Assembly (NCBI GenBank): GCA_016930085.1
Contig: JAFGHO010000040.1
Coordinates: 1-55,996, forward strand
DNA from: Spirochaetales bacterium
GTDB lineage: Bacteria > Spirochaetota > Spirochaetia > SZUA-6 > JAFGRV01
Reading direction: 5' to 3'
Length of the DNA: 55,996 nt
Part shown: positions 14,589-28,071 of the stretch, one piece after another
Layout: the number at the start of each line of letters is the position of its first letter
Numbering within the stretch: the stretch's first letter is position 1
Program-made: the position numbers and the translations under genes
The notes under the pieces: model-generated
Told to the model about the DNA's origin: nothing
Database searches by the model: none
The model's input: only the letters and a program-made list of their open reading frames with translations

Positions 14589-14946
14589 GCTTTGTCCGGA
14601 TTCACGGAAAACCAGGTTCCCCCGGTTTTCGCTTTCTTCCCGGCAGGTATTGGATCCGACATTCTGAATACCCTCTTTATACCAGCGTATGTGCGTTTCG
14701 TCCCGGCATGTTCGAATATACCGGAACGCAGTGACCGCCGTTACACAGTATTATTATAGTGAAGCCCCACCAAAATAACAAATAAAAAACCTGATACGAT
14801 ACCTTGTTTAGCGTGAAAAAACAATAATAAATGTATGAGAGCGATATCCCGGCCTCCGGGCGCCGCCGCCATATATATGAAAGTGTTGACTTTTTTATCA
14901 GGGAATGGCATAGTTATATACCGAAAACAGATTGAAGATGTAAACT
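14589..14946 (+). promoter_or_regulatory. intergenic region with a possible promoter for the first hybrid kinase
   Basis: This 358-nt spacer has no supported gene. TTGACT at 14886-14891 is a good -35 element; the best -10 candidates (CATAGT at 17-nt spacing, or TAGTTA at 19) are weak. A very similar stretch, TGTTGACTTTT, occurs at 20697-20707 upstream of the GH5 gene, which may mark a shared regulatory site. Confidence 0.35.
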
Positions 14947-17802
14947 ATGAAAAAAATGCGATCCCGAAAATCCTTCCGCAGGGTTGGTGTCTTTACGGCC
15001 TGGTTTTACGGGCATTACCAGCTGGAACTCATCTCCGGCATTGAAGAGGCGGCCGGGCGCCATAACGTGCAGGTGGTCTACTTTTCGGGCCGCGCCCTGC
15101 ATTCACCCGTCCCGTATGAAAACGATCATAACATCATTTATGATACAGCCCTGAATGCATCGCTTGACGGGCTTATTATCATGTCGCTTCTGGCCAATTA
15201 TTGCGATGATTATGCCTTGACGGAATTCATAGCCCGATATAAAGACATTCCGATCATTACCGTCAATTTCCGTTCCCTCATCGGCAACGCGATTCTTACC
15301 AACAATAAAAAGGGATTCAGCGCTTTGATGAACCACCTTATCGACCAACACGGCTACAGAAAACTCGCATTTGTCAAAGGACCGGAACATAATCGGGATG
15401 CAATGGAACGTTATACAGTGTACAAATCCGCTCTTTCCGGGAACGGAATCGATTACAATCCCGCACTCGTCACCGGAACCTGTTATACCTTCCGGGCGGG
15501 CCAGGAAGCGGTTAATGTGTACCTGGACGAACGCCGGTTGCGGCCCGGCAGGGACATCGAAGCGGTTGTCTGTGCCAACGACGCAATCGCGTTGGGCGTG
15601 ATCGATGCTCTTTATGAACGCGGTTTGCGCGTACCCCGGGATGTCGCGGTCACCGGATTCGATAACATGAATGCGTCGATTTTCCCCAAATTCCCGCTTA
15701 CCAGCGTCAAACAGCATCTTCGCGAAATCGGGAACATGGCAATGTGCAATCTTCTTGATTATCAACCTCACCGGGAGCCCATTTTTTTCGACACGGAACT
15801 CGTTATCCGCGATTCATGCGGGTGCATTAAACCGGAAGAAAAATCATCATCTCTCCCGGATATAAACAGAGAACGGGCGTCTTCCTGTGGAATGGATTCA
15901 GATGTATATAAAAAGGATCTGGAGTTCATCTATTACGAAATCACCAGGATCATCGACAATTTGAAGGATTTGCAGAAGATGACGGAATTTTCCGCATGGA
16001 TGCAGGGGAATTTCCCTGATCTGGGAATAGAAAGCGCCTGGATTTTGCTCTTTACAGAGGTCAATTCGGACGTCCGCACTTACAGACTGCTTGCCGGATT
16101 CGATCAGCGCCAACCGGAAGGAACGGAATTGAAGGATACCGTAGCGGAAACCGTGATCTTTGACCATATCCTTACCTGGCGGCCCGGCCGCTCCTACTGC
16201 ATGCTTCCGCTTCTCTCCAAGGGGGAAAAGTATGGCCTTCTTGTCATGGAAGTGAATCTATATACTTCCCTCGTATTCGATACGTTGAGCAGCCATATCG
16301 GAAGCAGCATCAGGAACATGCTTCTCGGCGAAGAAGTGATAGCGATGAACCGGCAGCTCATACAGGCCGATGAACAAAAAACCCGGTTTTTCATTAATGT
16401 GGCGCACGAAACAAAAACCCCGCTGACACTCATCAGGAATTACCTCGCGCTTTACATGGAAGAGCATGAACCCGACGAGAAGCTTGTCATCATGAAGCAG
16501 CATATCGATCTTCTGCTTGCCAATATGCTCAATTTTCTCGACGCTGAAAGACTTCAAAAAGAGGAATTGATCTACCGGCATGATGAGCTTGTGAATGTAT
16601 CGGCATACGCACGCGGAAAAAGCGACCTTTTCCGGGCCGTAGCTTCCAGAAAAAATATCCGCATAACCTTGACCGCGGATGACCGTGTCGTCATCAGGAT
16701 CGATCCCCTCGCACTGGAGCGTATTTTTAATAATCTCTTGGACAATGCGGTGAGATATATACAGTCCGGAGGACGGATACATCTCAATGTCCGGAAAACG
16801 AACGGCAAGGCAATACTCCGTATCAGCGACAACGGGCCCGGTCTGCCCGCCGACCGGTGGGGGCATCTTTTCGAACCCTATTACCTGCTTTCGAAGAAAC
16901 GAGACGGACGGCAGGGCATTGGTGTGGGACTTTCAATCGTGAAGAAGATCGTCGACGGACTCGGGGCTTCGATCAAGGCGGAGAAAGGAAGGAGGGGAGG
17001 AACATCCTTTACCATCACGTTCACGGATGAAAGCGGCGCGGCGGAACCGGAACAGCTTCAGGAAATACTCACAGCCGCATCGCCCATTGGCCCGGTTCAG
17101 GATGTTAATATCAAGGAAGGAAGGATTTCGGCCGACAGATCCTCGCTTTTCGTTATTGACGACAATATACATCTTCTGAAATTCATTCAAACCGCCTTTT
17201 CGGAATCGTACAACGTGTTCATGGCCCGGAGCACGGAGGAGGCTTTACTCAGACTCAAGGTGATACCCCGTCCGGATGTCATCATCTCCGACGTCATGAT
17301 GGACGGTGAAGACGGATTTCAGCTGCTTTACGCCATTTCGGAAAAGGACGGATACAACGACATTCCTTTTATCTTCCTTACCGCTTTGGGCGGTGAAACG
17401 GCAAAACTGAAGGGTCTCGATCTCGGGGCGGTCGACTATATCGAAAAACCCTTTTCCATCGCCACCCTGAGGGCCAAAATCGAATCGATCATCGGATTAC
17501 GCGGGCGGCAGGTGAAACAGGACCGCGAACGCATCCGCTACAGCATCGACGGACTGTTATCCGGTTCGGGCACCGACGCCGCGGAACCGGTGAAATCCGG
17601 GTTCGAATTGCACTGCGAGAAATTCGGCATCGTCGGCCGGGAAAAGGAGATCATCCGGATGATAATGGGGGGCCTGGTGAATAAGGAGATCGCTTCATGC
17701 ATGCATGTCTCTCAGCGCACGGTGGAGTACCACATCACCAAAATATATAAAAAATGCGGCGTAAACAACAAATACAATCTTCTGAAAAAATTCAGGGAGT
17801 GA
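14947..17802 (+). CDS. hybrid sensor: LacI-type sugar-binding domain, histidine kinase, receiver, LuxR-type HTH
   Basis: This 951-aa protein has no signal peptide or membrane segment, so it should be cytoplasmic. Domains in order: a LacI/periplasmic-binding-protein-like sensor (about 10-300) that lacks the usual LacI N-terminal HTH and ends in RDSCGC; a GAF-like region (about 330-460); a HisKA domain with His487 in NVAHETKTPL; an ATPase domain with NNLLDNAVRY, SDNGPGLP and GIGVGLSIVKKI; a receiver domain with phospho-acceptor Asp782 in ISDVMMDG; and a C-terminal LuxR-type helix-turn-helix (about 885-951; VNKEIASCMHVSQRTVEYHI). It could sense an intracellular sugar and control transcription in a single polypeptide. 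It lies 309 nt upstream of the first dockerin esterase gene; a paralogue is at 23466. Confidence 0.9.
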   Translation: MKKMRSRKSFRRVGVFTAWFYGHYQLELISGIEEAAGRHNVQVVYFSGRALHSPVPYENDHNIIYDTALNASLDGLIIMSLLANYCDDYALTEFIARYKDIPIITVNFRSLIGNAILTNNKKGFSALMNHLIDQHGYRKLAFVKGPEHNRDAMERYTVYKSALSGNGIDYNPALVTGTCYTFRAGQEAVNVYLDERRLRPGRDIEAVVCANDAIALGVIDALYERGLRVPRDVAVTGFDNMNASIFPKFPLTSVKQHLREIGNMAMCNLLDYQPHREPIFFDTELVIRDSCGCIKPEEKSSSLPDINRERASSCGMDSDVYKKDLEFIYYEITRIIDNLKDLQKMTEFSAWMQGNFPDLGIESAWILLFTEVNSDVRTYRLLAGFDQRQPEGTELKDTVAETVIFDHILTWRPGRSYCMLPLLSKGEKYGLLVMEVNLYTSLVFDTLSSHIGSSIRNMLLGEEVIAMNRQLIQADEQKTRFFINVAHETKTPLTLIRNYLALYMEEHEPDEKLVIMKQHIDLLLANMLNFLDAERLQKEELIYRHDELVNVSAYARGKSDLFRAVASRKNIRITLTADDRVVIRIDPLALERIFNNLLDNAVRYIQSGGRIHLNVRKTNGKAILRISDNGPGLPADRWGHLFEPYYLLSKKRDGRQGIGVGLSIVKKIVDGLGASIKAEKGRRGGTSFTITFTDESGAAEPEQLQEILTAASPIGPVQDVNIKEGRISADRSSLFVIDDNIHLLKFIQTAFSESYNVFMARSTEEALLRLKVIPRPDVIISDVMMDGEDGFQLLYAISEKDGYNDIPFIFLTALGGETAKLKGLDLGAVDYIEKPFSIATLRAKIESIIGLRGRQVKQDRERIRYSIDGLLSGSGTDAAEPVKSGFELHCEKFGIVGREKEIIRMIMGGLVNKEIASCMHVSQRTVEYHITKIYKKCGVNNKYNLLKKFRE

Positions 17803-18110
17803 GATGATTCGCAAAAACCGGCACCCAGTGTCCGGTAAAAAGACATCCATTTATTGTTTCAATCCTTGTCTTTCTTGTCCCTGTCACAATGAAACCCCCG
17901 CCCTTTTTCAGTTTTTTTGCGTCATTTTTACGGAAAACCCCTAAACCGGAAAAAAAACATATAAGGTATAATTTGTTCCGGCAGTGAAGCTTTTCTGCAT
18001 ATCCGTCTCCAACTCTTTCGGATATGTTTTGTTAAGCCGGCGGGCCTGTCGGTTCCGCCCCACTGAAACAATGAGTAAATCTTCGTTACTAAAAAACAGG
18101 AGGATCAATG
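17803..18110 (+). promoter_or_regulatory. leader region of the dockerin esterase gene
   Basis: This 308-nt spacer holds no supported gene. GGTATAATT at 17965-17973 contains a consensus -10 hexamer (17967-17972) without a convincing -35, which would give a leader of roughly 130 nt. AGGAGG is at 18098-18103. Confidence 0.35.
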
Positions 18111-19067
18111 ATGAAAAAAGGAAACGCAAGAACAAAAACCGAATGTCTGGTTTTCATGTTGTTTTTGTTATGTTTGAGCAATGTCTTCGGGGCTGCGTGC
18201 GGCGATGTCAATTCGAGCGGGACGATCGACATCGTGGACGCACTCGTCATCGCCCAGTACTATGTCGGTCTGAATCCGGGAAATTTCGACTCGAGTGCGG
18301 CGGACACCAACGGGGACGGTTCGATCAATATCGTCGACGCGCTCCGTGTGGCGCAATACTACGTGGGACTCGTGTCGGAACTGGCCTGTCCCGGCGCGAC
18401 GAATCCGCCAACGGTGACGAACCCTCCCGCGAGCACGACCATAAAAGGGAGTGAGGTGCTTGTGATCGGTGAATCCTTCATCGCTATGTCGCACGAGATC
18501 ACGCGAAACCTCGAACAGCTCGCGAGGAACGCAGGGATTCTTCCTTCGAACGAAAGTTTCCGCGACAATTCAGTGAGTGGGACGAGGCTTTCCGGAGGAA
18601 GTTCCCCGACGATACCGGAACAATACAGAAACGGTGTCCAGCAGGGTCCGGTGAAATGGGTGATCATGGACGGCGGCGGAAACGACTGCCTCCAGGGAAG
18701 CTGTTCGAATCCACCGACCTCAAGCTGCACCGATCTGCAGAACGCGGTCAATGCGGCACGGAACCTTCTCCAGCAGATGGGGAATGACGGGGTGATAAAC
18801 GTGGTCTATTTTTTCTACCCCGATCCGCTTTCCGACTACGGCGGGCTCAAGGCGAAGCTCGATGTGTTGCGGCCCCTCATTCAGAACGTGGTAAACTCGA
18901 GCACGAAGCCGAAGTGCTACTGGCTCGATTTACGGACCGTATTCGCCGGTCACGACAGCGAGTATACAAACTCGGACGGTATCCATCCCTCATCCGCCGG
19001 GTGCCAGGCGACCGCGAACGCGATCTGGAACATCATCCGGCAGAACAATTTTTTCGGCACGAATTAA
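18111..19067 (+). CDS. secreted SGNH/GDSL-type esterase with N-terminal dockerin-like domain
   Basis: A signal peptide (about 1-28, ending NVFGA) is followed by two calcium-binding dockerin-like repeats (about 30-92: GDVNSSGTIDIVDALVIAQYY and DTNGDGSINIVDALRVAQYY), a Pro/Thr linker, and an SGNH hydrolase domain (about 110-318). The nucleophile block reads VIGESF instead of GDSL, the glycine-asparagine block is GGGND, and the C-terminal Asp-His pair is in SDGIHPSSAG. Such enzymes deacetylate plant polysaccharides; the substrate here is inferred. Cysteines sit directly before the first repeat and just after the second. Two adjacent ATGs (18108 and 18111) follow AGGAGG; 18111 has the better 7-nt spacing. 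It is convergent with the GH5 gene. Confidence 0.85.
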   Translation: MKKGNARTKTECLVFMLFLLCLSNVFGAACGDVNSSGTIDIVDALVIAQYYVGLNPGNFDSSAADTNGDGSINIVDALRVAQYYVGLVSELACPGATNPPTVTNPPASTTIKGSEVLVIGESFIAMSHEITRNLEQLARNAGILPSNESFRDNSVSGTRLSGGSSPTIPEQYRNGVQQGPVKWVIMDGGGNDCLQGSCSNPPTSSCTDLQNAVNAARNLLQQMGNDGVINVVYFFYPDPLSDYGGLKAKLDVLRPLIQNVVNSSTKPKCYWLDLRTVFAGHDSEYTNSDGIHPSSAGCQATANAIWNIIRQNNFFGTN

Positions 19068-19225: not shown

Positions 19226-20527
19226 CTAACAAAAGGAATCGACCAGGCCGACGTAATACCGGGCGATGATTAACGCGTCGACGATGTTTATCGACGAATC
19301 GCAATTGACGTCCGCGTTTGCCCGGTTAAAGCCGGATGGGTTGAGACCCACGTAAAACTGGGCGACTAAAAGCGCGTCGACGATATTAATGGCGCCGTCT
19401 TCATTGACATCCCCCATGTCGTCCGACTGTGGGGGCGGTGTTGCTTCCGGGGACGGATACACAAGATCAGGGTAGTTATTGTAAAAGTTAGTCAGCGCGG
19501 CGCCGAGTCCGGAATCGAGGTTTCCGTTCGAATCGACGCCATTGGATGTCCATGGCATGAGACCCTGAAGGCCGTTCGAGTATCCGTTCATATAACAGTC
19601 GGTAATATTGACGCCGCCGACCCCGTTTGCGGGAAGTTCGCCGATGACGACCGGTTTGTCCGTAAGGCCGTATTCAGATACCTTTGTCGAAGCCATCGGA
19701 TTCCCGAACCAGTCGGTCACCCAGTCGTAAAAATGGGGGGAATAAAAATCCAGATATACATTGGCATTGTTGTATTGCGCCCTCAACCGGTCGTCCGAAA
19801 ACTGGTTGCCCTCGTTGTTCTGGTAGACATCGGTCTGCCATTTCATGCTTACCCCGACCGTCGCGAGAACATCGCTGTTCGCGTGAACTGCCGCGACCAC
19901 CCTGGCGCAAAAGTACTGCAGCGTGCTCCACGGCAGCTGCGCGTTGTTCGAATCCTGATTCACCCATTCGATCTCATTGCAGGGTTCGACGGCAAATAGA
20001 TAGGGATTGTCCTTGAAGCGGTTGACGAAGGGAACCACATAGTTGGCGGCAAAAGAATCGATGTTGGCGCTGCTTGCATACATGTTACGCCAGGACTGGT
20101 AGGTGTTGTATGTATTCTTCGTGTGATCGAAAGAGATGAGGGTGGCAAGGATATATATTTGGTTGGACCGGGCGAGTTGGAACATGTCCGCAAGATCGTC
20201 CCAGTGGTCCTGCGTCGCACCGGAGACACGTCCGCTTGAATCGATATTGATTCCGACCTCGCCGCTGCATGTTATCCATATCCTGGTGGCGTTTCCCCCG
20301 GCATTCTTGATACGTTTGAACTCGTTATCCCACCAGGAGGAATTGTAGCTTCCGCCGAAATCGTTCCAGTTGTTCCACGGGGTATTGGCCCCGTTTATAA
20401 AAACGGGGTTTCCGTTCACTTTAAAGGCGGCATTCTCAACATAAATCCGCTGGGCAACGGCATCTTCGATAAAAAAAGTCGTCGCACACACCATGCACAA
20501 GAGCATACAGATCAATTTATTTTTCAT
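19226..20527 (-). CDS. GH5-type mannanase/glucanase with C-terminal dockerin-like domain
   Basis: The protein has a signal peptide (about 1-26), a GH5-like (beta/alpha)8 domain (about 27-360) and a C-terminal dockerin pair (about 374-433). Likely catalytic residues are the acid/base Glu in EPCNEIEW and the nucleophile Glu in VVIGELPANG; the opening VNGNPVFINGANTPWNNW is typical of GH5 mannanase-like enzymes. Substrate (mannan or other beta-glycan) is inferred. The start ATG at 20527 is preceded by GGGAGG five bases upstream; an in-frame ATG 13 codons earlier would put this site inside the gene. The dockerin has Cys in DVNC of repeat 2 and a terminal Cys. It lies downstream of the AraC-type regulator on the same strand. 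Confidence 0.85.
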   Translation of the reverse strand: MKNKLICMLLCMVCATTFFIEDAVAQRIYVENAAFKVNGNPVFINGANTPWNNWNDFGGSYNSSWWDNEFKRIKNAGGNATRIWITCSGEVGINIDSSGRVSGATQDHWDDLADMFQLARSNQIYILATLISFDHTKNTYNTYQSWRNMYASSANIDSFAANYVVPFVNRFKDNPYLFAVEPCNEIEWVNQDSNNAQLPWSTLQYFCARVVAAVHANSDVLATVGVSMKWQTDVYQNNEGNQFSDDRLRAQYNNANVYLDFYSPHFYDWVTDWFGNPMASTKVSEYGLTDKPVVIGELPANGVGGVNITDCYMNGYSNGLQGLMPWTSNGVDSNGNLDSGLGAALTNFYNNYPDLVYPSPEATPPPQSDDMGDVNEDGAINIVDALLVAQFYVGLNPSGFNRANADVNCDSSINIVDALIIARYYVGLVDSFC

Positions 20528-20759
20528 AACAACCTCCCTGAATATATTTTTTATTACATGTGACATTTCACATTGAAAGCGCCGCGACCGCAGCGCATAT
20601 CGTGAAACGGTTTCCGACGGAAACCAGGCCCTGTCGGTAACTTACCGTATTCTACTATGAGGAAATAATGCAAGCGATGAATTTTCCGATAAAAATGTTG
20701 ACTTTTACGATAAAAGAAGTTTTTTATGACAATACCACACTTTCCGGGATAACCGGTGT

Positions 20760-21908
20760 TCAGGCGTGTTCTTTTCTGAAATCGCTGGGTGAGATACCCT
20801 CGTTTTTTAGAAAAACCTTATAAAAATACGATCTGTCGTTATACCCGACGGCAAAAGCGATATCGATTATCTGCCTGTCCGTTTCCGCCAAAAGACGCTT
20901 TGCTTCCGTGAGTCTGATTTTATTCAGCATCTGCTTGAAAGAAAGCCCGAATTCCCTTTTTACGAGAAACGAAATACGGGTCGGCGAAAGGCCGAGGTCG
21001 TGACCCATCTTCACCAATGAAATATCCGGATCGGTATACGATGTCTTGAAAAAACCGATGATTTTTCTCAAATCCATATCCTTGTGACTTTCCAGCGCCA
21101 GTCGTTTGTATGCGATCATTGCGGCGGGTCCTTTTTCTATTATCAGTAGCCGCCTTCGTTTATTTACCCGCAAAATAATAAAAAGCAGAAAATAATATAA
21201 AACCGCGCTTAATCCGATCAGGCTGTAATGAAATAAATGTGACCTGTAAAGCGAGATGGTTTTTATCGTCATACTGCTTTCCCGGTTCACCTGAAGTGAG
21301 GAATCATCCGGCGGGCTTTCTCCCTGAGAACTGTCGACGAGCAGGAAACAGCCGTTTTTCAAGGTATCCCGCCCGATGCCGATTCTGCCGGGATTATAAT
21401 CCCTCGTCCACCAGAACGGATCGCGAAAATCGGAAAGGGGACAGATATATCCGGTCTGATTTTCTTTTATCGGGACATTGTAGCCCAGATGCCGGAAAGA
21501 AGCCGAATCATTCATATTCGTAATGCCCGGAACAAAAAGCTTTATGATAACCGTGCATGCTTCGATATTGTTCGCCGTCAGGTCGATAAATATATGCGAA
21601 TAGGGAGAAAAATCAAAGAAATCGCCATATTCGGCAAGATTTATTCCGATTCCGGCAAAGGATCCTGGTTTCTCGTGAATGAATGTAAAAACGATATTGT
21701 CTTTCTTCACGCGAAAATCAATGATCGCCGATTTTTCCGGATCATTGTATGTCCAGACAGCCGTTTCACCTGTATTACCGCAGGGAAAGATGAAAAACGG
21801 TTTTTCCAGTGAATATTGCGCCAGCGGGATGAGGAGGAAGAAAGGCGGGAGTATCGCTATGATGAAGAAAAAATTTATTTTTTTTATTTTGTCCATAAAT
21901 AAGCACAT
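20760..21908 (-). CDS. membrane-anchored AraC-family regulator
   Basis: This 382-aa protein has one hydrophobic segment near the N-terminus (FFFIIAILPPFFLLIPLA), an extracytoplasmic domain (about 32-225) rich in beta-strands with the look of a carbohydrate-binding jelly roll (GSFAGIGINLAEYGDFFDF), a second membrane segment (about 230-248, SLIGLSAVLYYFLLFIILRV), and a cytoplasmic AraC-type double helix-turn-helix (about 285-380; RLLAETDRQIIDIAFAVGYND). The layout suggests direct sensing of an external ligand and DNA binding at the membrane. It sits between the GH16 and GH5 genes, all on the minus strand, so those are likely targets. A second in-frame ATG is at 21896; neither has a strong ribosome binding site. 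Confidence 0.85.
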   Translation of the reverse strand: MCLFMDKIKKINFFFIIAILPPFFLLIPLAQYSLEKPFFIFPCGNTGETAVWTYNDPEKSAIIDFRVKKDNIVFTFIHEKPGSFAGIGINLAEYGDFFDFSPYSHIFIDLTANNIEACTVIIKLFVPGITNMNDSASFRHLGYNVPIKENQTGYICPLSDFRDPFWWTRDYNPGRIGIGRDTLKNGCFLLVDSSQGESPPDDSSLQVNRESSMTIKTISLYRSHLFHYSLIGLSAVLYYFLLFIILRVNKRRRLLIIEKGPAAMIAYKRLALESHKDMDLRKIIGFFKTSYTDPDISLVKMGHDLGLSPTRISFLVKREFGLSFKQMLNKIRLTEAKRLLAETDRQIIDIAFAVGYNDRSYFYKVFLKNEGISPSDFRKEHA

Positions 21909-22323: not shown

Positions 22324-23304
22324 TTAGCAAAACCGATTTATAAGCCCGACGTAATACTGGGCGATTAATAAGGCGTCGACGATATCGATTGTGCCGTTAC
22401 AGTTCGTATCGGCGTTTTCCATATTGAAGCCGCCGGGATTGAGCCCGACATAGTATTGTGCCACCATAAGGGCATCGACAATGTCGATCGTGCCCGAGGA
22501 ATTGACATCACCCCGTAAACCAGGCGGGTTCGTAATGGTCGGGGCAACGGTCGGGGTGGGGTCCGGAGTTGTGCCTGTGTACGGATTGGTCTTCAGATAC
22601 CGTATCCAGTCGTAGTATATCGATTGCGGGACCTGTTGATCGAAGTTTCCAAGCCATCCCGTCACCGATGAATCGCCGTTCCAGTAATTAATCATACACA
22701 TGCTCGATGTTACCGGAAACTCCTGTCCGTTATTATTAATTGTATGAACAAGGACGCCGTCGATGTACCATTTGATGAACGAAGACTGCCATTCGAAACC
22801 GTAATTATGAAAACCGGCGGACGAATCGAAGCCCAGGTCGACCATATGTTCATGGCCGCCCTTACTGTCCGCGAAATAATTGCATTGCACCTGCCGGGGG
22901 TTTTTCCCCAGGATCTCGATGTCGATCTCGTCCCAGATCGTGTCATGGGAGGGGCCCGTGTAAAGGAAAAGTGAACTCACCGTACCCTGGTGGTTCGACG
23001 CTTTCATCCTGCATTCGAAGAAGCCGTACCGGTAGGTTTCGTTCGACCTGTATTCACCGGATTTCCACGGCGGGCTGCCGGTATACGAATCAAGCGTTAT
23101 GGCAAGCTGCCCTCCGGAAAATGTAATCTGTGTATCGCGCCAGTAACAATTGAAGGGGGAGCCGTTCGTCCAGCCGTCCGCTTTTGTCCATCGGCCGGTA
23201 TCGTAATTGTCCAGGTTGTCGGTAAACTCGGATTGTGCGAAAACAAAGGGGAATACCCCGGCCAAAAGAACACAGACGGCGATGCATCTCATCATATTTT
23301 TCAT
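22324..23304 (-). CDS. GH16 beta-glucanase (lichenase-like) with C-terminal dockerin-like domain
   Basis: The protein has a signal peptide (1-23, ending VFAQ), a GH16 jelly-roll domain (about 25-238) and a dockerin pair (about 264-326). The catalytic signature is DEIDIEILG (about residue 130), matching the E-x-D-x-(x)-E motif of retaining GH16 endoglucanases that cut beta-1,3-1,4 or beta-1,3 glucans. CNYFADSKGGHEH and YGFEWQSSFIKWYIDG are typical of lichenases. AGGAG lies about 9 nt before ATG 23304. Dockerin cysteines are in DTNC and at the very C-terminus (NRFC). It is transcribed divergently from the second hybrid kinase and towards the AraC regulator. Confidence 0.92.
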   Translation of the reverse strand: MKNMMRCIAVCVLLAGVFPFVFAQSEFTDNLDNYDTGRWTKADGWTNGSPFNCYWRDTQITFSGGQLAITLDSYTGSPPWKSGEYRSNETYRYGFFECRMKASNHQGTVSSLFLYTGPSHDTIWDEIDIEILGKNPRQVQCNYFADSKGGHEHMVDLGFDSSAGFHNYGFEWQSSFIKWYIDGVLVHTINNNGQEFPVTSSMCMINYWNGDSSVTGWLGNFDQQVPQSIYYDWIRYLKTNPYTGTTPDPTPTVAPTITNPPGLRGDVNSSGTIDIVDALMVAQYYVGLNPGGFNMENADTNCNGTIDIVDALLIAQYYVGLINRFC

Positions 23305-23465: not shown

Positions 23466-26381
23466 ATGAAAAAAGGAATGCATGGTAATGACAACAGGAT
23501 TTTTTGCGTGATAAGTACCTGGTTCAGGGGACAATACCAGTACGACTTGATATCGGGTATCGAATATGAAGCGGCGATAACGGGGACGAGGATAGTATAT
23601 CCGGCCGGCAGATGTCTCGATTCACCCGTATTATACGAGAAGTATATGAATATCGTTTATGATATTATCCCGCATATCCGTTTTGACGGCTTTATTATTT
23701 CAGGGTTGTTGGCAAATTACTGTAACCACAGGAGCATGGATGATTTCATAAAAAGATATTCGGACCGGCCGGTTGTAACAATCGATTACAAGGGAGAAAA
23801 CATCCCCGGAATTCTCCTGCACAACAGTTCCGGATTCAGGCAACTCATCACCCACCTTATCGAAGATCATGGATATAAAAAAATCGCGTTTATCGGAGGC
23901 ACGGAAGGAAGCCGTGATGCTCAGGAACGGCTGGACATATACAGGAACACATTGACGTCATACGGACGCCCTGTCGTCGATTCGATCATCGTAAAAGGCG
24001 ATTTCTCATACCTTTCAGGCCGGAAAGCGGTAAAAACATTGCTTTTCGACCGGAAATTGAAACCTGTTTTGGATTTTGACGCCATTGCGGCCTCCAATGA
24101 CCTGGCGGCATTGGGGGCTATCGATGAATTACGGATGCATGATATCGATGTGCCCGGTGACATCGCGGTAACCGGTTTTGATGATTCCCTCGATGCGGGT
24201 GATCCCTCTCATCATCTTACGACGGTAAGGCAGCCGGTATTTGCCATGGGAAGACAGGCGGTAAAGGTCCTGCTCGATTATCCGTCTGCAAAAGGCGACG
24301 TTTTTTTTCCGACACAGCTGGTTAAAAGAACCTCCTGCGGGTGCCCTGAACATATCGAACCGGCAATCCATTGTGTTACCGGCGATGCCGTCAACGCGGG
24401 GGAGAAAGCCGGGGATTATCTCAGGGCAGTCGAATATGTGACGCAGACACGACATAAAAAGATTCCCGAATATTACATGTATCAGCTTGTTTATGTCAGT
24501 GATGCCTTGAAGCAATTGATGTCAATCGATGAACTCGAATCCTGGATGGAAAGGGGTTTTTCGAGTCTTGGCATCGAGGAATGTTATCTGTTTCTCTACG
24601 AGGATTCCGGAGACCCCCCCCGTTTGTATTCGCTTGTTGCCGGGTATTCGGGAAAGGGAGCAATACCCAATGCGGAAAAAAGGGTGTATTCCGCGGATTC
24701 GCTTTTTATGTCGTTTTTATCGGACGGCCGCCATTCGTTCTGTATGCTTCCGGTATTGTTCAGGGATGAGCAGTTCGGATTTTTGCTTGCGGAAGTGAAC
24801 ATGGATGCATGGATCGCGTATGAGACGATCCGCAGCCAGGTATCGGCAAGTCTTAAAAATATGTTTTTCATCAATGAAATAAAGAAAATTAACAAATGTC
24901 TCGCGAAAGCGAATAAAAAACTGCAACAGGCGGAAAAGCAGAAAACCCGTTTCTTCATCAACATCGCGCACGAAACGAAAACACCGCTTACCCTCATTAA
25001 AAATTACCTTGAAAAATATCTGAAAAACCATGAACACGACGGGGATCTTCTTGTTATCAAGCGAAATATCGACATCCTCCTTGAGAACATGGTCAATTTC
25101 CTGGATGCCGAAAAGCTTGAAATGGGAAGGATTCTTTACAACCACAATCAGACCGTTTATCTTTCCCGGATAATCGAGAATAAGGCGGCTATTTTCAGGG
25201 AAATCGCCGTAAAGAAAAATATCCGTATTATGAGCGCGATCGAAGAAAACGTGTACGTCCGTGCCGATCCATGGGCAATCGACCGGATACTCAACAACCT
25301 GCTCGACAATGCGGTCAAGTATACACAGCACGACGGAGATATCCGCATGAAACTTGAAAGAAAAAAAGGCAGGGTCGTTCTCAGCGTATCGGACAATGGC
25401 CCGGGTATTGCGAAAGACAACATAAGCGATATTTTCAAACCCTGCTACCAGCTGTCGCAGCACATGACAGGTAATCAGGGAATCGGAATGGGGCTTTATA
25501 TCGTAAAGAAAATAGCGGATGAACTCGGTGCATCGATCGGGGTGAAAAGCGGGGAGGGAAGAGGAACATCGTTTACCATTTCGATGGGTGAAAGCACGGA
25601 AACGGAGACGGGGGTGAAATCGGATATTCCGCATCTTTCGGGACCGCCGGAAGGAGTGTATGCCCCGGTCCCTTTGAAAGAAGAAAGAATAGTAAAAGAA
25701 AAATCGACCATCCTTATCGTCGACGACAACAGCGATATGCTTTTTTTCCTGCAATCGGCACTGAAAGAAGCTTATAACGTATGTATGGCTGACAATGTAA
25801 AAAACGCTCTGGTTAAGCTCGAAAAAATACCGAAGCCCGACCTGATTATATCGGACATCATGATGGACGGGATGGACGGTCATGAGTTCCTGCGGACAAT
25901 TTCATCCGACAGTGAATATTCCGATATTCCCTTTATTTTCCTCACGGCAAAGCACACGGAAGCGGAAAAGCTGCATGGTTTGTCCGGGGGGGCGGTCGAT
26001 TTTATCGAAAAACCATTTTCCGTTTCGGCATTGGAAAAGAAGATCGAATCGATCGTGTCGTTGAGAAAAAAACAAAGAAAACATGAGCTTTCAAGGATAA
26101 AGAAGAAAATTGAATTGCTGCTTTCAGATACCGGAGAGCCCGGAATTTTAACGAAATATGACCGGCTGGAAGAGATGTGTGCGGCGAATAAAATCACCGG
26201 CAGGGAAAAGGATGTCATCGCATGTATCCTGAAAGGCCTGGTCAACAAGGAAATTGCCGCGTTACTGAACCTCACGCAGCGTACGGTGGAATTTCATATT
26301 ACCAATATTTACAAAAAATGCGGCGTACGGGACAGATTCGGACTCATGGCGTTATTCGGGGGCCCTTATCCCGAACCTTGA
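23466..26381 (+). CDS. hybrid sensor: LacI-type sugar-binding domain, histidine kinase, receiver, LuxR-type HTH (paralogue)
   Basis: This 971-aa protein has the same architecture as the one at 14947. It starts with a LacI-like sugar-binding domain (about 8-300, STWFRGQYQYDLISGIEYEA to RTSCGC), then a GAF-like region, HisKA with His502 in NIAHETKTPL, an ATPase domain (NNLLDNAVKYTQ, SDNGPGIAKD, GIGMGLYIVKKIADEL), a receiver with Asp797 in ISDIMMDG, and a LuxR-type HTH (VNKEIAALLNLTQRTVEFHI). No membrane segment is present. Its ligand-binding domain differs clearly from the paralogue, which implies a different sugar. It lies between the divergent GH16 gene and the convergent deiminase gene, and probably controls nearby dockerin enzymes. 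Confidence 0.9.
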   Translation: MKKGMHGNDNRIFCVISTWFRGQYQYDLISGIEYEAAITGTRIVYPAGRCLDSPVLYEKYMNIVYDIIPHIRFDGFIISGLLANYCNHRSMDDFIKRYSDRPVVTIDYKGENIPGILLHNSSGFRQLITHLIEDHGYKKIAFIGGTEGSRDAQERLDIYRNTLTSYGRPVVDSIIVKGDFSYLSGRKAVKTLLFDRKLKPVLDFDAIAASNDLAALGAIDELRMHDIDVPGDIAVTGFDDSLDAGDPSHHLTTVRQPVFAMGRQAVKVLLDYPSAKGDVFFPTQLVKRTSCGCPEHIEPAIHCVTGDAVNAGEKAGDYLRAVEYVTQTRHKKIPEYYMYQLVYVSDALKQLMSIDELESWMERGFSSLGIEECYLFLYEDSGDPPRLYSLVAGYSGKGAIPNAEKRVYSADSLFMSFLSDGRHSFCMLPVLFRDEQFGFLLAEVNMDAWIAYETIRSQVSASLKNMFFINEIKKINKCLAKANKKLQQAEKQKTRFFINIAHETKTPLTLIKNYLEKYLKNHEHDGDLLVIKRNIDILLENMVNFLDAEKLEMGRILYNHNQTVYLSRIIENKAAIFREIAVKKNIRIMSAIEENVYVRADPWAIDRILNNLLDNAVKYTQHDGDIRMKLERKKGRVVLSVSDNGPGIAKDNISDIFKPCYQLSQHMTGNQGIGMGLYIVKKIADELGASIGVKSGEGRGTSFTISMGESTETETGVKSDIPHLSGPPEGVYAPVPLKEERIVKEKSTILIVDDNSDMLFFLQSALKEAYNVCMADNVKNALVKLEKIPKPDLIISDIMMDGMDGHEFLRTISSDSEYSDIPFIFLTAKHTEAEKLHGLSGGAVDFIEKPFSVSALEKKIESIVSLRKKQRKHELSRIKKKIELLLSDTGEPGILTKYDRLEEMCAANKITGREKDVIACILKGLVNKEIAALLNLTQRTVEFHITNIYKKCGVRDRFGLMALFGGPYPEP

Positions 26382-26445: not shown

Positions 26446-28071
26446 TCATCGGCAAAAGCCTGTAATCAGACCGACATACAATTGTGCTATCAATAACGCA
26501 TCGACAATATCCACGCCATTATCACAATCGGTGTCGGCTTTTGATTTGTCGAACCCGGCCGGATCGAGACCGACATAGTATTGAGCCGTCAACAAGGCGT
26601 CGACGATATTGACCGCCCCGTTCGAATCAACGTCCCCCCGTATCGTACCTATATCCGGGGTCGGCGCCGGTCCTTCGACAATAAACCGGAACGGGTCGCC
26701 TTCCCCGATGTACGGCAGCCGGTACGTCCTTCCCGATGCATCGGCAGCGCTTATATAGTAAGAGACTTCCCTTTCGGTTGTTCGCGGTATTGTTCCCCTG
26801 TAGGTATTGCCGCCGGCATACTGCATTGTCGTCGAAGTAAATGAACCGTCATCTTTTTTATAAAATATCTTTACATCATCCGCATAAATGACTTCGCCGG
26901 CACATGAGACAATATCCGCTTCTATCGGATACGCCGATGCCTCGTCCTGTGTTCCCAAAAGCGGCATATGGCGTATGTCAATCATGTTTCTGTCGGGAAT
27001 CCCCTTGGTGCGGCAGTGCAGGGCATCGCCGGACAACCACGAATTGCGATTCGCCGTAATGCCGAATACCCGGTAGCCGGGCATTGCTCCGGCGTATGTC
27101 CGGACGGCCGCATCATCGTTAGGCGAACCGGTACAGGGGACAAATACCTTGTTGTTGATGATAAGGGAATTGGTATAGGGCTCGTCATTTGGCGTGTCGA
27201 TTCTTACGATTGTATACGGCGTCCCGTATGAAGATGTCGCATGCAGAAAATATGTTGCCGTATTTTCGATTTTTTGATATTGGGGATCTGACGGGGGTAC
27301 TTTTCGGATAAGGATGGTATCAACCGATAAAAATTTCCCCCAGCAGTCGATATGATCGATATAGGTCGAATTGGGATCTTCCACGATATGATAGGTGGAA
27401 ATGTTCAAATAATCGGCGGCAAGCCGCTTGATCGATGTTTCGTCCAGATCGGGGTTATCGTCGAGCAAAAGACGTGTGGAGGCGGCGACTCCCATGCCGT
27501 CGGACATATAATTCCCTCCCTGGATTGCCATATCCATGTAATAACAATCGACACCCAGCACCTCGCTCATTTTCGCAGGAATTGCATTGTCGTTCGGACG
27601 GAGGTATGAATAGAATATATCCACAATCGATATCCTGTTCAGATTATCCTCTATATAAAAAGGCCCGTAATCCCTGGTCCAGTAGGTATCCACCGGTGCC
27701 TGTACAAAGCTGCAGTTGGACAGCACCACATTATTCGAACTATAGTTCGATCGTACGATAGATTCGTCGGATGCATTTCCGACAATAGTCATCACCATAA
27801 CATCCTTTGATAATTCCGCGATCAAAGAATACGGAATCCCGAAATCTCCGGGATATGCGATAAGCACTCCTTCCATGGGTTCGAATTCGGCAATACTGCG
27901 AACCGGCGGTACGGGCGGTCCCGACACCGCCGGCATGGATTTTATTATCCCGGGATTGATAACATCATCGGGTGTCAGTTCATGGGTGAATCCATTGTTT
28001 TGTGCCGTCAGAACGTACGGGAAAACGGAATAAATGACAGCCATTATCATAATGAGCACTTGTTTTTTCAT
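26446..28071 (-). CDS. secreted peptidylarginine/agmatine deiminase-type enzyme with C-terminal dockerin
   Basis: The 541-aa protein has a signal peptide (1-23, ending VLTAQ), a PAD_porph-type pentein domain (about 60-385), an Ig-like beta-domain (about 390-465) and a dockerin pair (about 478-540). Guanidino-modifying active-site motifs are complete: YWTRDYGPF, IQGGNYMSDG, HIDCWGKFL, and the nucleophilic Cys in DALHCRTKGIPD. The layout of catalytic plus Ig-like domain resembles the secreted Porphyromonas PPAD, while agmatine deiminases are normally cytoplasmic and lack it. It would convert arginine residues or free guanidines to citrulline-type products and ammonia. The link to a dockerin is unusual. 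A paralogue is at 49448. Confidence 0.85.
   Translation of the reverse strand: MKKQVLIMIMAVIYSVFPYVLTAQNNGFTHELTPDDVINPGIIKSMPAVSGPPVPPVRSIAEFEPMEGVLIAYPGDFGIPYSLIAELSKDVMVMTIVGNASDESIVRSNYSSNNVVLSNCSFVQAPVDTYWTRDYGPFYIEDNLNRISIVDIFYSYLRPNDNAIPAKMSEVLGVDCYYMDMAIQGGNYMSDGMGVAASTRLLLDDNPDLDETSIKRLAADYLNISTYHIVEDPNSTYIDHIDCWGKFLSVDTILIRKVPPSDPQYQKIENTATYFLHATSSYGTPYTIVRIDTPNDEPYTNSLIINNKVFVPCTGSPNDDAAVRTYAGAMPGYRVFGITANRNSWLSGDALHCRTKGIPDRNMIDIRHMPLLGTQDEASAYPIEADIVSCAGEVIYADDVKIFYKKDDGSFTSTTMQYAGGNTYRGTIPRTTEREVSYYISAADASGRTYRLPYIGEGDPFRFIVEGPAPTPDIGTIRGDVDSNGAVNIVDALLTAQYYVGLDPAGFDKSKADTDCDNGVDIVDALLIAQLYVGLITGFCR

Follow-up and report, generated by a model that had tools for sequence, protein, structure and literature searches.

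A predicted cytoplasmic hybrid two-component regulator with a LacI-type sensor core and its dockerin-gene neighbours in a spirochaete

The window analysed here, 55,996 nt of contig JAFGHO010000040.1 from a Spirochaetales bacterium (GCA_016930085.1), carries at positions 14947 to 17802 the gene of a regulator, called kinase 1 below, that joins a LacI-type ligand-binding core to a histidine kinase, a receiver and a LuxR-type DNA-binding domain (the last three together abbreviated HK-REC-LuxR). The features of this gene are the following:

14886..14914 (+), TTGACT-17-CATAGT, by consensus match only a possible sigma-70 promoter for kinase 1
14947..17802 (+), kinase 1, LacI-type/GAF/HisKA/HATPase/REC/LuxR hybrid regulator; complete ORF of 951 aa with an ATG start
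14980..15819 (+), LacI-type ligand-binding core, residues 12-291, without helix-turn-helix (HTH); Pfam and structure matches
15814..15825 (+), SCGC, residues 290-293, tail of the RxSCGC signature of fused LacI cores
15892..16326 (+), GAF-fold domain, residues 316-460; AlphaFold2 and Foldseek
16375..16557 (+), HisKA dimerisation and phospho-acceptor domain, residues 477-537; Pfam 5.2e-6
16405..16407 (+), codon of His487, phospho-acceptor (AHETKTPL)
16702..17025 (+), HATPase_c, residues 586-693; Pfam 2.4e-23
17149..17484 (+), receiver (Response_reg), residues 735-846; Pfam 3.8e-19
17290..17292 (+), codon of Asp782, phospho-acceptor (ISDVMMDG)
17638..17781 (+), LuxR/GerE HTH, residues 898-945; Pfam GerE 3.6e-13

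Domain layout and cellular location

From the N to the C terminus, the order is LacI core, GAF, HisKA, HATPase, REC and LuxR. Within the ligand core, Pfam places Peripla_BP_3 at residues 130-291 (2.7e-23) and Peripla_BP_1 at residues 26-270, while the LacI HTH (PF00356), which the genome's two true LacI proteins do have, is unmatched in kinase 1. The sequence-only reading had described a LacI-like ligand domain without its DNA-binding part, followed by HisKA with His487, an ATPase, a receiver with Asp782 and a LuxR-type HTH, and Pfam finds each of them where it was named. In the kinase part, H487 and the residues of the N-box and G-box are conserved. Both His487 and Asp782 are invariant in the three HK-REC-LuxR paralogues of this genome, and His487 is also invariant in an alignment of eight rows that includes relatives from other genomes. 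As for the output end, the receiver followed by a C-terminal GerE HTH is, by Pfam, the arrangement of NarL/FixJ-type response regulators. The word phosphorelay, used in the earlier reading, has to be dropped: no HPt domain appears in the Pfam scan of kinase 1, and a single HisKA and a single receiver leave one His and one Asp site, so that a multistep relay is ruled out and the protein is a one-step hybrid two-component protein.

Where in the cell does this protein work? By Kyte-Doolittle hydropathy, kinase 1 has neither a membrane segment nor a signal peptide. Its best 19-residue mean is 1.62, reached in a single window inside the folded core, and the best mean within the first 40 residues is 0.62, against 2.3-3.1 for the secreted and membrane proteins of the same window that served as controls. 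The export signal of type I periplasmic binding proteins was likewise not found. Hydropathy thus rules out a membrane anchor or export, as the sequence-only reading had held for the anchor, and domains and hydropathy together support a soluble two-component regulator with a LacI-type sensor in a single polypeptide.

Another part of the protein, the stretch from 316 to 460, matches no Pfam family. AlphaFold2, run on eight relatives, gives it a confident fold (pLDDT 83), and the best Foldseek matches in the PDB are GAF domains (E 8e-5 to 1e-3), among them those of PtsP proteins and NtrC-like regulators. Similarity in this linker extends to fusions with other outputs (query residues 337-482 and 338-467). 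The model of the full-length protein contains a long helix at 441-506; it is of middling quality (pLDDT 73, pTM 0.49), and the relative placement of the domains is therefore not to be read from it.

The LacI core and its many outputs

The ligand core offers the most direct hint of what is sensed. Residues R155, N211, D239 and Q256 of kinase 1 match R197, N246, D274 and Q291 of LacI, residues that contact its inducer; the profile match of the E. coli LacI sequence used in this mapping (7.9e-38) is consistent with the LacI entries of the PDB. Among the 24 proteins of this genome in which such a core is fused to another domain, the arginine is kept in 24, the asparagine in 22, the aspartate in 24 and the glutamine in 21, and the position of LacI W220 is aromatic in 22. 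The nearest solved structures, from Foldseek and structure matches, are an ecLacI ancestor with fucose, RbsR with ribose and CelR with cellobiose. Because the inducer contacts of LacI are kept as R155, N211 and D239, the ligand is likely a sugar, that is, a small carbohydrate; this follows from the LacI core only, since the kinase, receiver and HTH part is common to proteins with other sensors.

Two other accounts of the core have to be weighed. PurR and CcpA are also among the nearest solved structures, and like them the core might sense another intracellular metabolite (a nucleobase, a sugar phosphate or a cell-wall fragment) and report the general carbon or energy state. The 24 fusions are not alike in the N-lobe positions of the pocket and so probably have different ligands, and a second ligand, a metabolic one, might bind to the GAF-fold domain. 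We nevertheless consider this account unlikely, as the conserved R, N and D of the pocket are sugar contacts in LacI and, compared with the other fusions, those with the HK-REC-LuxR output much more often adjoin dockerin enzyme genes (see below). The second account makes the core a mere dimerisation platform that binds no ligand, with the GAF domain or a partner protein as the real sensor. LacI cores dimerise strongly, one kind of core is joined here to a variety of outputs, as could be expected of a scaffold, and a GAF-fold domain is at hand. A pure scaffold, however, would not be expected to retain pocket residues, and the retention of R155, N211, D239 and Q256 in nearly all of the 24 paralogues, against variation at many other positions, suggests selection on a ligand site; we find this account very improbable, and return to a core that likely binds sugar.

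Kinase 1 is one of many such proteins. Of the 26 Peripla_BP_3 proteins in the genome, two are ordinary HTH-bearing LacI repressors and 24 are fusions. Their outputs are HK-REC-LuxR (3), HisKA_3 kinases with PAS (4), HisKA/HATPase or HATPase only (3), HK-REC (1), HK-REC-GGDEF (1), GGDEF (2), PAS-GGDEF-EAL (3, in tandem), HD-GYP (4), SpoIIE (2) and MCP (1). All 24 are without the LacI HTH, their ligand core begins within the first 23 residues, and hydropathy finds a clear membrane segment in none of them. Nearly all fused cores end in RxSCGC (variants SCSC, SC-C, SCGS, SCGT), a signature that the genome's two ordinary LacI proteins do not have; its two cysteines, as a pair, might serve in redox chemistry or bind a metal. 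Kinase 1 belongs to this group of fused LacI-type sensors, a grouping defined in this analysis, as it has an HTH-less LacI core, the RxSCGC end and a C-terminal signalling output. In a tree made by a quick method without bootstrap, the fused cores stand apart from ten canonical LacI cores (SH-aLRT 99). The GAF-fold domain, two further HK-REC-LuxR copies and the 21 remaining fusions all go beyond the earlier reading.

At E<=1e-55, 17 of 149 Spirochaetota genomes contain relatives. Outside the phylum, WP_015231178.1 of Deinococcus peraridilitoris, annotated as LacI-GGDEF-EAL, clusters in the tree with the spirochaete fusions and is separate from the canonical LacI repressors. Like kinase 1, it has an HTH-less N-terminal LacI core and a C-terminal signalling output; it differs in that the output serves c-di-GMP turnover and the signature reads RQSCGT instead of RxSCGC. 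Periplas_BP domains with GGDEF, EAL or HD-GYP have been listed as putative sensors of a function not known (PMC8846402), and our literature search found no papers on LacI-sensor kinases. The LacI-type sensor is thus a plug-in module for many outputs, an existing but unstudied kind; the parts of kinase 1 are of known kinds, and their combination is new.

Two other members of the group deserve mention. At L033:4152-15146, the three LacI-PAS-GGDEF-EAL genes lie in tandem on one strand and adjoin a true LacI repressor gene. At L030:4819-7071, a LacI core is followed by an MCP signalling domain without any membrane segment, possibly a cytoplasmic sugar chemoreceptor.

How widespread is the LuxR form itself? 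Full-length LacI-HK-REC-LuxR proteins are present in 4 of the 5 genomes of one family, f1. In 21 other genomes of the order, a strict threshold gave no full-length HK-REC-LuxR fusion, and a shallow search of a 296-genome sample of the phylum, which covered the two top candidates of each genome, gave none either. No full-length plasmid homologue covering 80% of the query was found. A scan of named genomes, which relied on two short peptide patterns, returned as full-length matches Spirochaetales MAGs from Zodletone spring and one short contig binned as Acidobacteria. The latter (L047, JAFGBY010000120.1) is 4.8 kb long and carries the regulator with a dockerin gene; it is likely mis-binned, since its LacI core groups with a spirochaete copy. 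The HK-REC-LuxR form has been found only in one spirochaete family, as far as searched; the fusion of a LacI core to an output is not unique, being widespread in Spirochaetota and known also from Deinococcus.

On the tree of LacI cores, the HK-REC-LuxR output label has to change at least three times: in the clade with both copies of the window, in a clade next to a SpoIIE fusion, and at L163, which lies among GGDEF-EAL fusions. The simplest reading is that this form was assembled at least three times within the family. One further copy, in genome G004 (L156, 7995-8900), is interrupted by TAA after the LacI core and is either a decaying gene or an assembly error.

Dockerin genes and a promoter-like element

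The surroundings of kinase 1 contain these features:

17912..17948 (+), TTTTTTGCGTCATTTTTACGGAAAACCCCTAAACCGG, conserved element and candidate for an activator site; also present in genomes G002 and G003
17967..17972 (+), TATAAT, whose distance to the element is nearly constant (32-33 nt); a recognisable -35 box is lacking
18108..19067 (+), dockerin-bearing GDSL-type esterase, located after the conserved element and presumed to be the target
22324..23304 (-), GH16-dockerin gene, divergently oriented relative to the second regulator copy
23466..26381 (+), second regulator copy, 971 aa, 42% identical overall, same architecture by Pfam
26446..28071 (-), PAD_porph-dockerin gene, oriented convergently to the second copy

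The second copy therefore has dockerin genes on both flanks, and a third lies elsewhere in the same genome (G000:C82). Across genomes, an immediate dockerin neighbour is found for 12 of 18 HK-REC-LuxR fusions, compared with 3 of the 21 other LacI fusions of this genome (Fisher p=0.001). Within this genome alone the figures are 3/3 and 3/21 (p=0.01), and none of five other-output fusions in sister genomes has such a neighbour. Of the six HK-REC-LuxR fusions without one, four have lost one side at a contig end. Were the background chance of a dockerin neighbour 6-15%, the binomial probability of 12/18 would be 3e-11 to 1e-6, with the caveat that related genomes do not supply fully independent copies; separate assemblies that still came to lie beside dockerin genes argue against mere inheritance.

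Do these neighbours tell what the regulator controls? This genome abounds in dockerin genes, with at least 148 matches, and they are clustered, so that neighbourhood alone is no proof of regulation. The regulator might repress, or act elsewhere, with the adjacency reflecting only the density of dockerin genes; this abundance would fit such a view, as would the six fusions without a dockerin neighbour, four of them cut by a contig end, and the lack of clear enrichment of the relaxed element given below. Against it, 12 of 18 is very unlikely at that background and the 21 control fusions stay near it, and the TATAAT that follows the conserved element has no -35 box, as in activator-dependent promoters. 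We give this alternative little credence, and favour activation of the neighbouring genes.

The element, whose core is TTTTTACGG, sits in the stretch that separates kinase 1 from the GDSL-dockerin gene next to it. Four loci, spread over three genomes, carry it, and TATAAT follows at the same spacing; the ungapped HSP scores are 27-32, whereas shuffles reach 15 at most. Of the G003 copies, one immediately follows the kinase 1 orthologue (L048) and the other is at a contig end (L202); the G002 copy (L151) precedes a dockerin gene that is two genes away from a clade-B kinase. Hence two of the four loci are directly 3' of orthologous kinases, and these two are not independent of each other, while one copy adjoins a kinase of the other LacI clade. 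Genome-wide, the relaxed element gave 14 matches, versus 9 for the reversed control, and is not clearly enriched; the strict form (3 mismatches) gave 7 matches in five genomes, versus 3. A genome-wide regulon is therefore unsupported, and the element would at most serve as an operator for its own locus. Upstream of the kinases and their neighbours, no shared dyad operator rose above shuffles, and the sigma-70-like match ahead of kinase 1 showed no enrichment over them. A tie to dockerin genes was merely hinted at in the sequence-only reading, and the neighbourhood and the conserved element now back it; from the position of the element, we infer that the LuxR HTH may bind there.

The same genome holds other dockerin-related features. 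At G000:C104:60685-64512(-), L171 is an ORF of 1724 aa with four cohesin matches and a dockerin, a candidate scaffoldin; together with the dockerin matches counted above, it makes the genome a candidate for a cellulosome-like system in a spirochaete. In a 2024 survey of cellulosome bacteria, the word "spirochaete" is absent from the main text (PMC11557425).

Proposed mechanism and known systems

The reading that we regard as fairly probable is that kinase 1 is a cytoplasmic hybrid two-component activator, which senses an imported sugar and switches on the neighbouring dockerin genes; our confidence in any exact ligand is lower. An imported small carbohydrate, probably a breakdown product of plant polysaccharides, would bind in the LacI-type cleft. 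The dimeric core would then close and pass the signal through the GAF-fold domain and the long helix to the HisKA dimer, which would become phosphorylated on His487. In one step, the phosphoryl group would move to Asp782 of the same polypeptide, and the phosphorylated receiver would free the LuxR-type HTH to bind near the adjoining dockerin-enzyme genes, with the element upstream of TATAAT as the candidate site.

The regulators of polysaccharide degradation studied so far (hybrid two-component systems, HTCS; ECF sigma/anti-sigma pairs; RsgI) mostly sense outside the cytoplasm. The HTCS of Bacteroides resemble kinase 1 in having histidine kinase, receiver and HTH in one polypeptide, and they use an AraC HTH. 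The contrast drawn earlier with these membrane-spanning, AraC-output systems stands, as kinase 1 has a LuxR/GerE HTH, no HTH_18 match and no hydrophobic segment. HTCS include types with a LacI/RbsB-like periplasmic sensor, and three Bacteroidales hybrid kinases (L063, L065, L073) are weakly similar in the LacI core. They control polysaccharide-degradation genes and sense an external stimulus through a membrane protein (PMC10766802).

Similar to kinase 1 in their input are the LacI-family repressors that control plant-sugar genes (GlyR2/GlyR3, CelR, AraR, XylR), with the same ligand core and probably the same type of ligand. Such repressors bind DNA by their own HTH and let go on ligand binding; in kinase 1, unlike them, the LacI HTH is missing and the signal would run via His-Asp phosphotransfer. 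The chassis has its own relatives, the 7TM-HK-REC-LuxR kinases of the Bacteroidota Cnuella takakiae (L056) and Rhodocytophaga aerolata (L066), 34-35% identical over residues 457-951, and L041 and L045 of this genome; their sensor, unlike that of kinase 1, is a multi-pass membrane domain. As for targets, XydS/XydR of Ruminiclostridium cellulolyticum is encoded upstream of the xyl-doc cluster that it controls (PMC3572039), and XydS/XydR and XygS/XygR are cases of two-component control of dockerin or polysaccharide-degradation genes (PMC3572039, PMC11557425). These clostridial systems differ from kinase 1 in having a separate kinase and regulator, and they are not reported to have a LacI core.

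A regulator of this kind, usually beside enzyme genes probably under its control, suggests that plant sugars are read after import and not at the membrane. Tentatively, the picture may be extended to a cellulosome-type spirochaete lineage that reads plant polysaccharides from inside, with the HTH-less LacI module as input for nearly every output (24 proteins in one genome) and a LuxR hybrid assembled at least three times, whose two main lines lie beside dockerin clusters that are maybe controlled via dedicated local promoters. If this is true, a soluble hybrid kinase with a LacI core senses the imported product, and as no membrane is needed it could be studied as a single protein. Paralogues with the same core and different outputs would be a natural set for learning how a LacI-type cleft drives a kinase, a cyclase or a phosphodiesterase, and the adjoining promoter-like element makes the question of the target directly testable.

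Two last points concern the surrounding cluster. The dockerin downstream of the second copy is carried by PAD_porph, of the peptidyl-arginine/agmatine deiminase family, an unusual cargo for a cellulosome-like system. At positions 19226-21908 of the window, the gene of a membrane-anchored AraC regulator is followed by a dockerin gene; the order is kept in a related genome (L053, 4772-7291), where the pair is also near a kinase 1 relative, and this regulator may be a second, classical sensing route on the same cluster.
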